This document shows, one piece after another, positions 12,113 to 17,700 of a stretch of DNA of 64,000 nucleotides. The translations under genes were made by a program, and so were the position numbers. The notes beneath the pieces were generated by a model. The model was given only the letters and a program-made list of their open reading frames with translations, had not been told where the DNA came from and made no database searches. Source of the DNA: Flavobacteriales bacterium (lineage in GTDB: Bacteria; Bacteroidota; Bacteroidia; Flavobacteriales_D; UBA2798). The stretch lies in the NCBI GenBank assembly GCA_019694795.1, contig JAIBBF010000006.1:1-64000 (forward strand), in the 5' to 3' direction. Each line of letters starts with the position of its first letter. Positions within the stretch are counted from its first letter, which is position 1.

Positions 12113-12120
12113 TATTTTTG
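12113..12120 (+). promoter_or_regulatory. -7 box of the exported WD40-caspase module
   Basis: TATTTTTG matches TAnnTTTG and predicts transcription starting near position 12126, just before the GTG codon at 12143. This supports the GTG as the true start of the first gene. No further convincing promoter is seen before the end of the four-gene run. Confidence 0.55.
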
Positions 12121-12142: not shown

Positions 12143-12778
12143 GTGCGAATTATTACATTAACTAATTCATTTTCAAAAAAATGCATTAGGAAAAAGGAAT
12201 TTCTCTCTTTTCTCCTGCTTTTTCTTTTTTTATCCGGAACAGCGCAATCATTTGAAAAACATGGGTTCCGGTACAATACACTGGCCGGCCATCAATGGGG
12301 ATTGTCCTTTCCCGTTTCCGGTTTTTGGGTAATGACCAGCGATTACGATTACGAATCGACTGATGCAAAAAACACCGCCCTCTTCAGTGCAGGAGCAATG
12401 CTCACACTAAAAAATGATGCCGACAGAGGAATTGGATTTGGCTTAGGATTGGATTATGCAACCACCGGATATTTCAGAGCCAATGCACTCATCGATCTGG
12501 ATTTTCTTTTTCATTTTATTGCTCCAATGGGTGATAATTTCTCATTGGGGGAATCGGTTTGTTCTAAATGGAAAATCAGTTCGGTACTGGGAACAGTGGA
12601 TGGAAAAAAAATCAGGGAATATTATATTTCTGTTAACTTTTTACAAATCCATTTTGGAAAGTTCACGTTTACGATGGGACTAAACAAAGGAATTTTCCGA
12701 AAACAGTTTCCTCCCTTTTATGCAGATCAAGGGTTGAATTATGGCTTGACCTACACCTTTAAAACCAAAAGAAGATGA
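12143..12778 (+). CDS. Exported barrel-like protein, first gene of WD40-caspase module
   Basis: I do not recognise the family. The 211 residues start at a GTG positioned a few bases after the predicted transcription start. The only ATG nearby is out of frame. A long Lys/Arg-then-Leu-rich signal (FLSFLLLFLFLSGTAQ) indicates export, with cleavage around residue 35. The mature part is rich in alternating hydrophobic/aromatic strands and Gly turns (GIGFGLGLDYATTGYFRANAL) and ends in an aromatic strand (GLTYTF), as in small outer-membrane beta-barrels. Its stop overlaps the next ATG (ATGA), so the four genes are translationally coupled. Confidence 0.75.
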   Translation: MRIITLTNSFSKKCIRKKEFLSFLLLFLFLSGTAQSFEKHGFRYNTLAGHQWGLSFPVSGFWVMTSDYDYESTDAKNTALFSAGAMLTLKNDADRGIGFGLGLDYATTGYFRANALIDLDFLFHFIAPMGDNFSLGESVCSKWKISSVLGTVDGKKIREYYISVNFLQIHFGKFTFTMGLNKGIFRKQFPPFYADQGLNYGLTYTFKTKRR

Positions 12779-13545
12779 AGCATATTTTCGTTTTATTCCT
12801 TTTTTTGGTACTTGAAACCGGCATAAACGCACAGCGAATCAGTTCAGGTTTTACGGCAACCACTCCTCTGGCAGGCAGCATTCATTTTAATCAGAATTAT
12901 TATAATCCGGTTAATACAGTTCGCATCTATTTTGTGCATGAACCCGGAGCCGATCAATCGAGAATGACCTTCTTTTCTCCAATGGGATTGGGAATGAAAT
13001 GGTATAAAACATTTGGACTTGGAGTCGGATATCAAATGAAAGCTGAATTCAACCGTTATATTTTGCGATTGGGTTATCAGTTCATTTACAACAGTGCCAC
13101 GGTGCGATTAAATCATTTTGGTTATTCGGGCGAAGTAGATAACTACAAAGCCTTGTTCAATATGCAAAATCTCCAGCATCGAATTCCGCTTACCTTTTCC
13201 ATTAATCTAAAAAATCATGCAAGTTCACCCATGATTGTTGTAGGTGCGGAATACGGACAAATCGTTTACATGAAAGAACGTATCGATTGGGATCCGGGTC
13301 ATTATGACCGCTACTACATCCCATTTATGTACGGCAAATACTACGATAATAATCCATGGATAACTGCCAATATCGGATATGGAAAAAAACATAAAAACAT
13401 CGAATGGTACTTGCTGTGGAAAACAAGGGTGGATAAACATAAATCGGACTTAAGCATGCAAAACCAGCAGATGGAATTTACGTTTGCCTGGTATTTATCG
13501 TATAAATCACTTCGCAGAAAACACTTTATCTATTATGAAGAATAA
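12775..13545 (+). CDS. Exported barrel-like protein, second gene of WD40-caspase module
   Basis: The 256-residue protein has a clear signal peptide (MKHIFVLFLFLVLETGINAQ). The mature sequence is dominated by aromatic beta-strand patterns (LGMKWYKTFGLGVGYQMKAEF, split by Gly turns) of the kind found in Bacteroidota outer-membrane barrels. No named domain is recognisable. It starts in a 4-base overlap with the preceding gene, and the following lipoprotein gene starts 11 bases before its end. It is unlikely to be an enzyme; a porin-like or anchoring role in the outer membrane is an inference from composition alone. Confidence 0.75.
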   Translation: MKHIFVLFLFLVLETGINAQRISSGFTATTPLAGSIHFNQNYYNPVNTVRIYFVHEPGADQSRMTFFSPMGLGMKWYKTFGLGVGYQMKAEFNRYILRLGYQFIYNSATVRLNHFGYSGEVDNYKALFNMQNLQHRIPLTFSINLKNHASSPMIVVGAEYGQIVYMKERIDWDPGHYDRYYIPFMYGKYYDNNPWITANIGYGKKHKNIEWYLLWKTRVDKHKSDLSMQNQQMEFTFAWYLSYKSLRRKHFIYYEE

Positions 13546-14623
13546 ATTATTATTCCTTCTCTTCCTTATGGTAACTGGTGTATCCTGTAAAAAAATAGAT
13601 GCTCCAACAGATGAAATTGTGGAACGTTACACCTGGCTGGATGCCATTTGTGTTTCTTCACTGAACTACGATTCCTATTCTGGAAATAATCTGTATTTCA
13701 CCATGGAAGCAGCCGCGTTGAAAAATGGCAAATTGGTGGATATTTATCCCGATTCTGCCTTTTACAGTATTTATGGTTTTGCATTAAGCGCGAATGCATT
13801 GGTCGATTCGGTTTACACGTTGGAATACCAGAACGATTTTTCGTATCAAAACATCATGATTGTCGACCAGGCCGGTTACGATTATCAATTTGTAGATGAC
13901 GGAAATTTTATTGATGCAATGAACCGGATGGACAAACTTTGTGATCCCTCAAAAAATCAATATTGTTCATTTGGATTTTTTGCCCGCGAAAGTTTAAACG
14001 GCAATTCACCTGTACATTTTTTAGGCGAAGAAAGCGGAAATTTATTCGATCATAGTCACGAAGAAGTCATGGATTTCCTTTCTACCAATTATACCAATCT
14101 CGGAAGCGCAAGCAATTCTTCTTTGTTTGATGCCATCGACCGGTCTCTGGACAAACTCATTTCAGATCCCCGATCCACCCGCCGATCGGTTACTGTAGTG
14201 TGTAATAATTACGACGATGGTAGCAGCGCTGTTAATGCCACTGCTTTAATCAATAAAGCAAACACCAATAACATCTCCATTAATGTAATTATGCAGGGCT
14301 TTTCATCTTCCGATTTGTACCGACTTGCCCATGAAACGAATGGCTATATTTCAGAAGCTAACTCAACCCCATTTGGAGGATATCCATACAATCTTTCCAG
14401 AACCATTGTGTATCATAATCACGATTTATTAGCCGGTAATGGGAAACGTTATGTAATAAAAGGACATGTTTACAGACCTTCTTTGTGGAATGTTGGACAT
14501 ACTTTTTCAGGGTATCTGGTGGCCAATTACCAAAAAGAAATCAATTCCAATTATTTCGAAGACGATCTAACGGATGATTTGGATTTAAATCAACGACTAC
14601 CTATTTATATCAAAATTCCATGA
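13535..14623 (+). CDS. Lipoprotein with VWA-like domain, third gene of module
   Basis: The start is the internal ATG giving MKNKLLFLLFLMVTGVSC, a textbook lipoprotein signal with the lipidated Cys at residue 18. A 17-codon upstream extension would spoil it. Of the 362 residues, the C-terminal half resembles a von Willebrand A fold. It has a segment SSLFDAIDRSLDKLI like the conserved helix after the metal-site threonine loop, a strand VTVVCNNYDDGSS where VWA proteins have the TDG motif, and ISINVIMQGF followed by LYRLAHETNGYI. The N-terminal MIDAS loop is not clear. It overlaps the next gene by ATGA, so it is probably a partner of the WD40-caspase protein. Confidence 0.75.
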   Translation: MKNKLLFLLFLMVTGVSCKKIDAPTDEIVERYTWLDAICVSSLNYDSYSGNNLYFTMEAAALKNGKLVDIYPDSAFYSIYGFALSANALVDSVYTLEYQNDFSYQNIMIVDQAGYDYQFVDDGNFIDAMNRMDKLCDPSKNQYCSFGFFARESLNGNSPVHFLGEESGNLFDHSHEEVMDFLSTNYTNLGSASNSSLFDAIDRSLDKLISDPRSTRRSVTVVCNNYDDGSSAVNATALINKANTNNISINVIMQGFSSSDLYRLAHETNGYISEANSTPFGGYPYNLSRTIVYHNHDLLAGNGKRYVIKGHVYRPSLWNVGHTFSGYLVANYQKEINSNYFEDDLTDDLDLNQRLPIYIKIP

Positions 14624-17600
14624 AAACTAGTTTAATCCTTTTCTTTTTTGGAATTTCAATCCTTTCGCTTCAGGCGCAGCACATCACGCCGGCTGTACAG
14701 CAAGGACATTACGGTCCAATTAAAGCCATTGCAGTTTCTCCCGATCAAAAATCCATTGCTTCGGTTGGAGATGATGGTCAGCTCATCTTCTGGGATCTCA
14801 ATTCCGGAATGCAGCTTAAGCGGAAAATGATTTACTCATTACACAATCACTATTCGATTTGTTATGGCGGACCAACCCAACTTTTATTCAGTTCAAACGG
14901 ATCTACCCAACGCTTCGATGCCGAAAAAAATCAATGGGACGGCAATGCTAATCCACTTTATTTACCGCTAAAGGGAGATTCGTTGGTCGACGGTGAATAT
15001 TGCATTCGGATAAAAGGACCTGAAATTTCATTTAAAAAATCAGGTGTCATTTTTTCACGTAAAACATCCCGCTTTTTCAATGAAGGTTTCACCCAAATGG
15101 TGATTCATAAACCATCATCGAGTGTATACGTTGCCTCGCTCGACGGCAGAATTTATGTTTACAATTATAAAACGGGGAAAATAAAAGATCACCTTGCACT
15201 GCATCAATCGGCGGTAAATGATTTGGATTTGAGTCCCGATGGTAAAAAATTATACAGTGGCAGTTCAGACCGAACCATTATAGAATGGGATGTGGAACAA
15301 GGTAAAATGCATCGACGATTTCACGGTTACAGTTATCGTGTTAGTGCAGTAAATTTTTCATCTCAATACGATCAATTGATCTTTGGCGATGAAATTGGTA
15401 ATCTTAAGTTTTTCGACATGAGTAATTATTCTCAAGAGATAAAAACCATTAAGATTTCAGAACATCCTCTGTTGCAAATTATCCCGCAGGGCCAAGATCA
15501 ATTACTCATCATTACACCCGAAAACCGCATTCGTTCTTATTCTGTTTCTACAGGTAAAACCAGAACCCGTCATAAATATCATCGCCTAAGCTGGAAGCTG
15601 TTTCAGCAATCATTTTTTGAGCATGTTTTGGGAATGTATATGGAACCTCGTTTCAATGCTTTTTATTATTCTGCCAACGAATCGGGTTCCGTTGAAGTGT
15701 ATGCCGGAAATGAAAAATATAACCGGAATCGCCGAAAAACGGTCGTAAAAAAACCGGGAATCAAAAAGCGGAGAACCATTCGTGATAGTCAGAATTACAT
15801 TCAATCCCTTTTATTAATTAATGATAGCACCTTTGCTGTTTTAAGAGCCGATTCAGGAAGTTTTTCCGTTGGAACAACCAGCTTTTCCAATCAATTGGAG
15901 ATATGGACCCTGAAGAAAAATACCTGGTACAAAAAAACACTGGGTTCGGGTTCTAATTTTGATGATGTAATTCGCTGGGATAATCAATCGGTTTTGGAAT
16001 TAACAAAAGGTGGAATTCTCATGGTGCAAAATGTATTTACCAATGCGAGTTTTAACCTGAACATTCAGATTCCCCCATCCTATCGGAATAAACTTTTCAG
16101 AAAGAAAAATCTAATAGGAATTGCATCACAAAGTGATTTTTACCTGTTTAGTTTGGGAACAGGATCAGATTATAAATTCATAGGAAAATTTACGGGTCAC
16201 GATGCAGAAATTAACGATTTCGATTTTTCGCCCATCAATAATACACTGGTTACAGCCTCGAATGATGCCAGCATTAAATTCTGGAATACTACCAATCAGA
16301 AATTAATTTCTACGCTAATTCCTACGGGGAAAAAAGATTTTATTTTGGTAGATCCCGAAGGGAATTACCAAATCACCAAAAACGCTTATAAGAAATTTGG
16401 ATTTTGCTCCGGAATGCAATTTATTTTTCCCGACCAGTTTGATCTCAAATTTAATCGTCCCGATGTAATTCTCTCTTCCATGGGAATTGGAAATTCAGAG
16501 CTACATCAATTGTTGTCAAAAGCCTACATCAAGCGCCTTAAACGCATGGGTTTTTCATTGGAGGAATTAAACGGAGAATCTTCGTTGCCTGAAATTGCGA
16601 TTGAAAATACCACTAAAAGCGACCAGCAAATCACCCTTCGGGTGAAGGCAAAAGATGAGTTATGGGCGCTGGACCGAATCAATTTATTAGTCAATGATGT
16701 GCCTATTTTCGGATCAAAAGGATTTCAATTTTCAGATACCGGATTGCATCAATGGAGTGGTGATTTAATGGTTCCATTATTAGATGGAAAAAACAAAATT
16801 GAAGTTTCTGTCCTCAATAAAAAAGGGACCGAATCGGTTCGGACTTCTTTAATTGCAGAAGGAAAAAACACTGCGCAAGCCAACCTCTTTTTAGTATCAC
16901 TCGGTGTAGGAAAATATGCAGATTCCCGTTTTAATCTTACTTACCCTGGTAAAGACGCTATCGATATTCAGAGTGCCTACAAAAGCATGGAAGGAAAATT
17001 TGTAAATAAGGTGTACAGTTTATGTTTACAGGATTCCGCTTTTACACTGCAATCACTTTCCGGCATCAGATCCTTTTTACAAAATGCAGGAGCTAATGAT
17101 TATGTAGTGATGTTTTATGCGGGACACGGTGTTCTGGATGCAGATTTAAATTATTATCTGGGCACTTATGCAATGAACTTCCAAAATCCAAAAGAAAACG
17201 GACTAAGCTACGAAAGCTTCGAAGCACTGGTGGATGGCATTAAACCCATGCGGAAATTAATTCTTATAGATGCTTGTCACAGTGGTGAAGTGGACAAGGA
17301 AGAAGTGGAACAAATTAGCATGAATACCGAAGGAAATGGCGACATCCGGTTCCGTGCGGCAGGTGCAGGAATTCAAAAGAAGAATCTTGGATTAAAATCC
17401 ACTTCCGAATTAATGGCTGAACTATTTACCGATCTACGGAAAGGAACAGGTGCAACTGTAATTTCATCAGCTGGTGGTGCCGAATATGCCATGGAAAGTG
17501 CAAGCTGGAAAAATGGTTTGTTCACTTATTGTCTGCTCAATGGAATTCGTTCGAAAAAAGCCGATTTAAACCGTGACGGGGAAATTGTATTGAGTGAATT

Positions 17601-17700
17601 ACAACAATTCCTACGAACAGAAGTGGTACGCTTAAGTAAAGGGATGCAGCAACCTACTTCCCGAATGGAAAACCCTGCAATGGATTTTCGTTGCTGGTAA
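14620..17700 (+). CDS. Exported WD40-repeat caspase-fold (peptidase C14) protein
   Basis: The 1026-residue protein has a signal peptide ending near LQAQ. N-terminal WD40 repeats follow, the clearest being HYGPIKAIAVSPDQKSIAS, SAVNDLDLSPDGKKLYSGSS and AEINDFDFSPINNTLVTAS. Then comes an Ig-like segment and a caspase-like domain from about residue 755. The catalytic dyad is intact: His836 in YAGHG and Cys886 in DACHSG. Residues 982-993 form a perfect EF-hand loop (D-x-N-x-D-G-x-I-x-x-x-E), so calcium may modulate activity. Prokaryotic caspase homologs usually cleave after Arg/Lys or Asp; specificity here is unknown. It is the fourth, coupled gene of an exported module. Confidence 0.9.
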   Translation: MKTSLILFFFGISILSLQAQHITPAVQQGHYGPIKAIAVSPDQKSIASVGDDGQLIFWDLNSGMQLKRKMIYSLHNHYSICYGGPTQLLFSSNGSTQRFDAEKNQWDGNANPLYLPLKGDSLVDGEYCIRIKGPEISFKKSGVIFSRKTSRFFNEGFTQMVIHKPSSSVYVASLDGRIYVYNYKTGKIKDHLALHQSAVNDLDLSPDGKKLYSGSSDRTIIEWDVEQGKMHRRFHGYSYRVSAVNFSSQYDQLIFGDEIGNLKFFDMSNYSQEIKTIKISEHPLLQIIPQGQDQLLIITPENRIRSYSVSTGKTRTRHKYHRLSWKLFQQSFFEHVLGMYMEPRFNAFYYSANESGSVEVYAGNEKYNRNRRKTVVKKPGIKKRRTIRDSQNYIQSLLLINDSTFAVLRADSGSFSVGTTSFSNQLEIWTLKKNTWYKKTLGSGSNFDDVIRWDNQSVLELTKGGILMVQNVFTNASFNLNIQIPPSYRNKLFRKKNLIGIASQSDFYLFSLGTGSDYKFIGKFTGHDAEINDFDFSPINNTLVTASNDASIKFWNTTNQKLISTLIPTGKKDFILVDPEGNYQITKNAYKKFGFCSGMQFIFPDQFDLKFNRPDVILSSMGIGNSELHQLLSKAYIKRLKRMGFSLEELNGESSLPEIAIENTTKSDQQITLRVKAKDELWALDRINLLVNDVPIFGSKGFQFSDTGLHQWSGDLMVPLLDGKNKIEVSVLNKKGTESVRTSLIAEGKNTAQANLFLVSLGVGKYADSRFNLTYPGKDAIDIQSAYKSMEGKFVNKVYSLCLQDSAFTLQSLSGIRSFLQNAGANDYVVMFYAGHGVLDADLNYYLGTYAMNFQNPKENGLSYESFEALVDGIKPMRKLILIDACHSGEVDKEEVEQISMNTEGNGDIRFRAAGAGIQKKNLGLKSTSELMAELFTDLRKGTGATVISSAGGAEYAMESASWKNGLFTYCLLNGIRSKKADLNRDGEIVLSELQQFLRTEVVRLSKGMQQPTSRMENPAMDFRCW

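Follow-up and report, generated by a model that had tools for sequence, protein, structure and literature searches.

A recurrent four-gene module of candidate envelope proteins and an exported WD40-caspase in Bacteroidota

Layout and recurrence of the module

Three genes for candidate envelope proteins and a gene for an exported WD40-caspase, here called g1 to g4, form a recurrent module in the Bacteroidota. In the window, i.e., the whole 64,000-nucleotide stretch of Flavobacteriales DNA that was analysed, the genes are plus-strand ORFs: g1 (12143..12778; GTG start, 211 aa), g2 (12775..13545; 256 aa), g3 (13535..14623; 362 aa counted from ATG) and g4 (14620..17700; 1026 aa). Successive genes overlap by 4, 11 and 4 bases, as a preliminary description of this DNA had reported. 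Ten loci in 9 assemblies of Bacteroidales, Cytophagales and Flavobacteriales have the g1-g2-g3-caspase order on one strand, the loci being recognised by profiles and the count including the window locus (Flavobacteriales). The search among neighbours for a conserved order that the preliminary description had proposed did therefore find one, in distant Bacteroidota. Chryseosolibacter histidini PWU4 (Cytophagales), a named strain in culture, carries the module, and partial sets were seen at several further loci. Junctions within modules run from -14 to +11 bp, with one exception, a g1-g2 gap of 117 bp at locus L097; the g2 call there lacks a signal peptide, so its start was probably called too late.

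With profiles built without the window copies, window g2 scored 32.5 bits (hhalign probability 92) and window g3 67.4 bits (hhalign probability 98), and the other window proteins tested as controls scored at most 9 bits. By these comparisons, the g2 and g3 of the window are homologues of their counterparts at the other loci, in the same order and on the same strand. The corresponding profile of other g1 proteins gave 0.1 bits with window g1, i.e., did not recognise it, so that g1 is assigned to the module by position alone. Strong full-length g2 and g3 matches adjoined a WD40-caspase in all cases except genome G311, a co-occurrence to be read with the caveat that the g1-g3 profiles were seeded from caspase neighbours. 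Unseeded cases were also met. Genome G577, retrieved by the g2 profile, has its match beside a frame-broken caspase of the g4 family; this g1-g2-caspase locus (L207, 5848-8323), with its caspase frame in pieces, is either decaying or mis-assembled. At L084, the best WD40 match of g4, an ORF at the contig edge overlaps the caspase start and ends in NYLPFYVKIP, resembling the RLPIYIKIP of g3, and was read as a g3 tail. Forms of the module without g3 occur at L110 and L123, and g3 is thus not essential to every version. A lipoprotein at L087 was considered as a g3 and rejected as a YCF48/BNR-type protein.

Searches with single sequences gave a different picture. BLAST of g1-g3 against the neighbours of close g4 paralogues gave nothing convincing, single-sequence searches of 150 genomes of the order found no g1-g3 homologues, and a genome scan with a single sequence found no match. 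The refutation of the module that the BLAST searches had suggested was reversed by the recurring arrangement in the wider named set.

Two further observations concern the make-up of the modules. In GWA2_32_17 (L126, 3519-16077) two complete modules lie in tandem, with a SpoIIE/two-component-propeller protein in front. In four modules a lipoprotein of ~150 aa precedes g1 (L114, 2874-3341; L126, 9543-10040; L149, 2985-3449; L155, 3123-3557); it is missing in the window and is a possible fifth component.

Upstream of the window operon, TATTTTTG (12113..12120, plus strand) fits TANNTTTG and is a weak candidate for a Bacteroidota -7 promoter element. No clear -33 element was found near TATTTTTG. 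The TANNTTTG pattern has 39 matches in the window, rarer than the chance mean of 70 in shuffles, and because it occurs 39 times the promoter at 12113 is only suggestive. Of the single promoter proposed earlier, the fit to the pattern stands, but the motif is weak. In a same-genus genome, guaB and a methyltransferase gene are collinear with the flanks in the window and lie 90 bp apart, the guaB promoter TATCTTTG is kept, and the four-gene block is absent. Since the whole block is missing there, the four genes were probably gained or lost together. Their third-position GC does not stand out in the window, which contains no tRNA; nor does any relevant tandem repeat point to a mobile element, and a plasmid search gave one distant match only. 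In the same-genus genome G001 (L070, 14853-16331) an in-frame TAG splits guaB, probably through an assembly error.

The four products

Read from the sequence, the N-termini of g1, g2, g3 and g4 all resemble Sec signals, in keeping with the export signals originally noted on all four products; that of g4 is MKTSLILFFFGISILSLQAQ. Pfam matches to g4 were above cut-off for both WD40 (6e-25) and Peptidase_C14 (1.6e-10), with 41.5 bits against PF00656 (cut-off 21.4). The WD40 matches place the propeller region approximately at 14689..16314 (plus strand). Downstream on the same strand lie the codons for the catalytic His836 (CAC, 17125..17127), in an AGHG motif, and Cys886 (TGT, 17275..17277), in a DACHSGE motif with Asp884 two residues before the Cys. 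The C-terminal 485 residues were modelled with AF2 from 24 homologues; the model had a pLDDT of 82 and, when compared with the PDB, matched MALT1 best (1.8e-9), with caspases below 1e-4. Pfam, codons and modelled fold thus agree on a WD40 and caspase protein with His836 and Cys886 intact, and the catalytic half is assigned, on the model, a caspase fold with an intact predicted dyad. Both dyad residues, Asp884 and the Asp of a KDA motif are invariant in 106/106 relatives, partly by selection, because the search pattern for many of these relatives included the Cys motif. The nearest solved sequences to the g4 family by profile are plant metacaspase-4 and GSU0716, and both Asp residues align with plant metacaspase-4, whose family cuts after Arg/Lys. 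Orthocaspases likewise cut after Arg/Lys (PMC6426788). By analogy, g4 probably cleaves after Arg or Lys. The T9SS tail (TIGR04183) was found at 123 places in the genome and in none of the four genes, so that g4 is not ordinary T9SS cargo.

For g2, the barrel assignment comes through its family: the Pfam model OMP_b-brl_2 was found in 7 of 14 members (best 2.5e-7), and window g2 itself has no direct match. This supports g2 as a putative small outer-membrane barrel of an OMP_b-brl_2-like family. The g1 product is an exported-type protein that looks barrel-like by eye and occupies the position of g1 in other modules, and it had no match in Pfam or NCBIfam. Of the two barrel-like proteins first proposed, g2 is therefore supported through its relatives, but g1 has no profile support. 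Barrels of the family and controls could not be told apart by a beta-strand alternation score.

The g3 product has a lipobox (VSC, Cys18), and a candidate lipobox Cys is also present in complete relatives. Window g3 alone had no Pfam match and no visible VWA domain; a degenerate VWA-like domain at about residues 105-290 is predicted from relatives, which match VWA slightly below the cut-off (9e-5 to 2.5e-3), and the family profile aligns with VWA-OmpA lipoproteins. The lipoprotein part of the original VWA-like lipoprotein assignment was thus borne out in the window itself, and the VWA part emerges only through relatives. The VWA metal-site motif DxSxS is absent from window g3 (DQAGY), so that this copy probably lacks the usual metal binding; the motif reads DASGS and DQSGS in L148 and L134. 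The lipoprotein surface signal C-X-K-(D/E)2 (PMC5080379) is absent from window g3, which favours a periplasmic face. A surface-type CKKEEE follows the Cys of the module lipoprotein of L114. An AF2 model of g3 alone was uninformative (pLDDT 36). Among 396 phylum genomes, the g3 profile had one other full-length match, the one in G311, which is not beside a caspase. The remaining matches were mostly to the VWA part of longer proteins, and six of these that were inspected were all VWA proteins, most with an OmpA-type tail. The VWA-OmpA lipoproteins of the phylum resemble g3 in their lipobox and in the VWA-like domain predicted for it; g3 differs in having no OmpA domain and in its degenerate metal site.

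Exported caspases and the two halves of g4

The preliminary description had treated an exported caspase as exceptional, homologues being mostly cytoplasmic. For this phylum that does not hold. Seven C14 proteins are encoded in the genome. Across that genome and four more from the order, 23 further proteins share the C-terminal half of g4 at 34-49% identity, and almost all of them begin with a signal-like stretch. A search of a species collection gave 485 caspase relatives, of which the best 80 loci were taken further. In the named set, 70 of 86 called ORFs had a strongly hydrophobic N-terminus, and many of the exceptions resemble fragments or mis-called starts. Overall, most of about 100 g4 relatives have signal-like N-termini, the opposite of what would have spoken against an exported caspase, and the phylum therefore has many exported WD40-caspases. 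There is also precedent, in that a 2012 survey reports that many metacaspases probably carry signal peptides and that some metacaspase operons contain OmpA or surface genes (PMC3501461).

Most exported WD40-caspases stand alone, with no conserved neighbours. Partners of the g1-g3 type are absent beside the other six C14 proteins of this genome and beside close g4 paralogues in related genomes. Co-occurrence thus runs in one direction: strong full-length matches to g2 and g3 adjoin a WD40-caspase except in G311, but most exported WD40-caspases do without them. Other neighbourhoods also recur. A CHASE2-domain protein and an exported protein of 258-261 aa lie directly upstream of a WD40-caspase in Bacteroides, Tannerella and Winogradskyella records (L119, 4536-6555; L153, 2376-4300; L157, 4752-6703), with a CHASE2 Pfam match in L119 and L153. 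In a third arrangement a barrel protein and a lipoprotein precede the caspase (L135, 3428-5983; L151, 1438-4499; L156, 209-1847), with PepSY_like repeats in L135 and L151; its three caspases form one clade. Elsewhere in this genome (G000:C27; L032, 6165-7448) another WD40-caspase paralogue has a T9SS-tailed protein encoded 62 bp upstream, and a related gene is at the same place in a same-genus genome (L038).

In a tree of 106 catalytic domains, the g3-bearing members were scattered, with 7 changes, at least 3 of them forced by strong branches, and the catalytic domain of the window grouped with two module-less proteins of its own genus. Module members found each other at a mean percentile of 0.78 by the WD40 half versus 0.59 by the catalytic half; the WD40 percentile was reached by 0 of 2000 random sets, also once close relatives had been removed. 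Similarly, g1-g3 distances correlated with those of the WD40 half at r 0.84-0.94 and with those of the catalytic half at r 0.59-0.68, across 10 loci of which six are close relatives. These comparisons are read as indicating that the WD40 half fits the partners and that the catalytic half may have been swapped or converted between paralogues. The scattered catalytic-domain tree could alternatively reflect an old module that was lost many times. If exchange did take place, we consider it possible, and put it forward tentatively, that a sensor set of two barrels, the VWA lipoprotein and the matching WD40 propeller is inherited as a unit while the caspase domain is exchanged within a lineage, so that the exported caspases of one genome would be outputs of different envelope sensors. 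The split between the two halves marks where partner specificity would lie.

Known systems and possible roles in the cell envelope

Gingipain-type C25 enzymes are clan CD proteases that leave the Bacteroidota cell by the T9SS; g4 is likewise a predicted exported clan CD protease, but belongs to C14 and has no T9SS C-terminal tail. With the WD40-linked orthocaspases and metacaspases of PF00656, g4 has in common the caspase fold, the His-Cys dyad, the acidic residue two positions ahead of the Cys and the WD40 repeats. It differs from WD40-linked prokaryotic homologues in being exported, in its C-terminal catalytic domain and in its fixed envelope partner genes; the WD40-linked forms described in the accessible part of the survey are mostly metacaspase-NACHT-WD40 proteins (PMC3501461). 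The same part of that source has operons joining a caspase homologue to outer-membrane genes, as here, but those have an OmpA domain where the present ones have OMP_b-brl_2 barrels and a VWA lipoprotein, and it does not describe the four-gene set (PMC3501461). The EACC1-type caspase conflict systems (NF047832) have a caspase domain related to that of g4; g4, however, scored 59 bits, below the cut-off of 140, no effector-associated domain was found in it, and it has export signals. No description of the g1-g2-g3-caspase set was found in open-licence literature, in agreement with the preliminary description. Thus, as far as the accessible survey text goes, signal peptides on metacaspases and some operons with OmpA or surface genes were already known, and the fixed four-gene set appears to be new. 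As the set recurs in distant Bacteroidota and no description was found, it probably represents a cell-envelope protease system that has yet to be characterised.

We propose, at about an even chance of being right, that the operon encodes an outer-membrane-associated, partner-gated protease. The proposal draws on the gene order and its recurrence, the export-type N-termini, the lipobox, the caspase fold and dyad, the missing T9SS tail, and the way in which the WD40 half tracks the partners. The g2 product, and perhaps that of g1, would be small outer-membrane barrels, and g3 a lipoprotein of the outer membrane that binds through a VWA-like domain. The g4 protein would reach the periplasm via Sec, where its WD40 propellers would dock on g3 and the barrels, so that these partners control the caspase domain. 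The barrels or the lipoprotein would sense a signal that then releases or activates this domain, which would cut envelope proteins after Arg or Lys. Against such gating, sequence does not support the family membership of g1, and most g4 relatives have no such partners.

The export signals on all parts, and the CKKEEE of the L114 lipoprotein, would also fit a surface or secreted effector that the barrels and lipoprotein move or hold in place, and whose targets are external protein, for digestion, or neighbouring cells. Such a role seems unlikely, given that g4 has no T9SS tail, that window g3 lacks the surface motif and that barrels of ~210-250 aa would probably be too small for passage of a folded 1026-aa protein. 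Bacterial caspases often belong to conflict systems (PMC8195603), and we wondered if the barrels and lipoprotein might sense envelope damage, with the caspase destroying the cell's own envelope in self-killing or phage defence. A weak PADLOC caspase match, and the occurrence of the whole block in one species of the genus but not in another, are in line with this, but the match is limited to the caspase domain and WD40-like repeats, with none for g1-g3, no defence genes were noted adjoining the module loci examined, and the known systems are cytoplasmic, which makes the idea fairly improbable. It is highly improbable that there is no functional unit and that a stand-alone exported caspase lies behind unrelated envelope genes by chance. 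Ten ordered, tightly spaced operons across distant orders, the congruence of g1-g3 divergence with that of the WD40 half, and the prospectively found g3 of L084, all argue against chance, even though most paralogues are solitary, other exported caspases have different envelope neighbours (CHASE2, PepSY-like, OmpA) and the single-sequence search of 150 genomes of the order gave no g1-g3 homologues.

Discussion of bacterial caspase homologues has centred on cytoplasmic roles in death or defence. Here they appear as a widespread exported family of the Bacteroidota, a subset of which has fixed envelope partners. If these partners gate the protease, the module would be a caspase-based envelope response system, open to test in Chryseosolibacter histidini PWU4.
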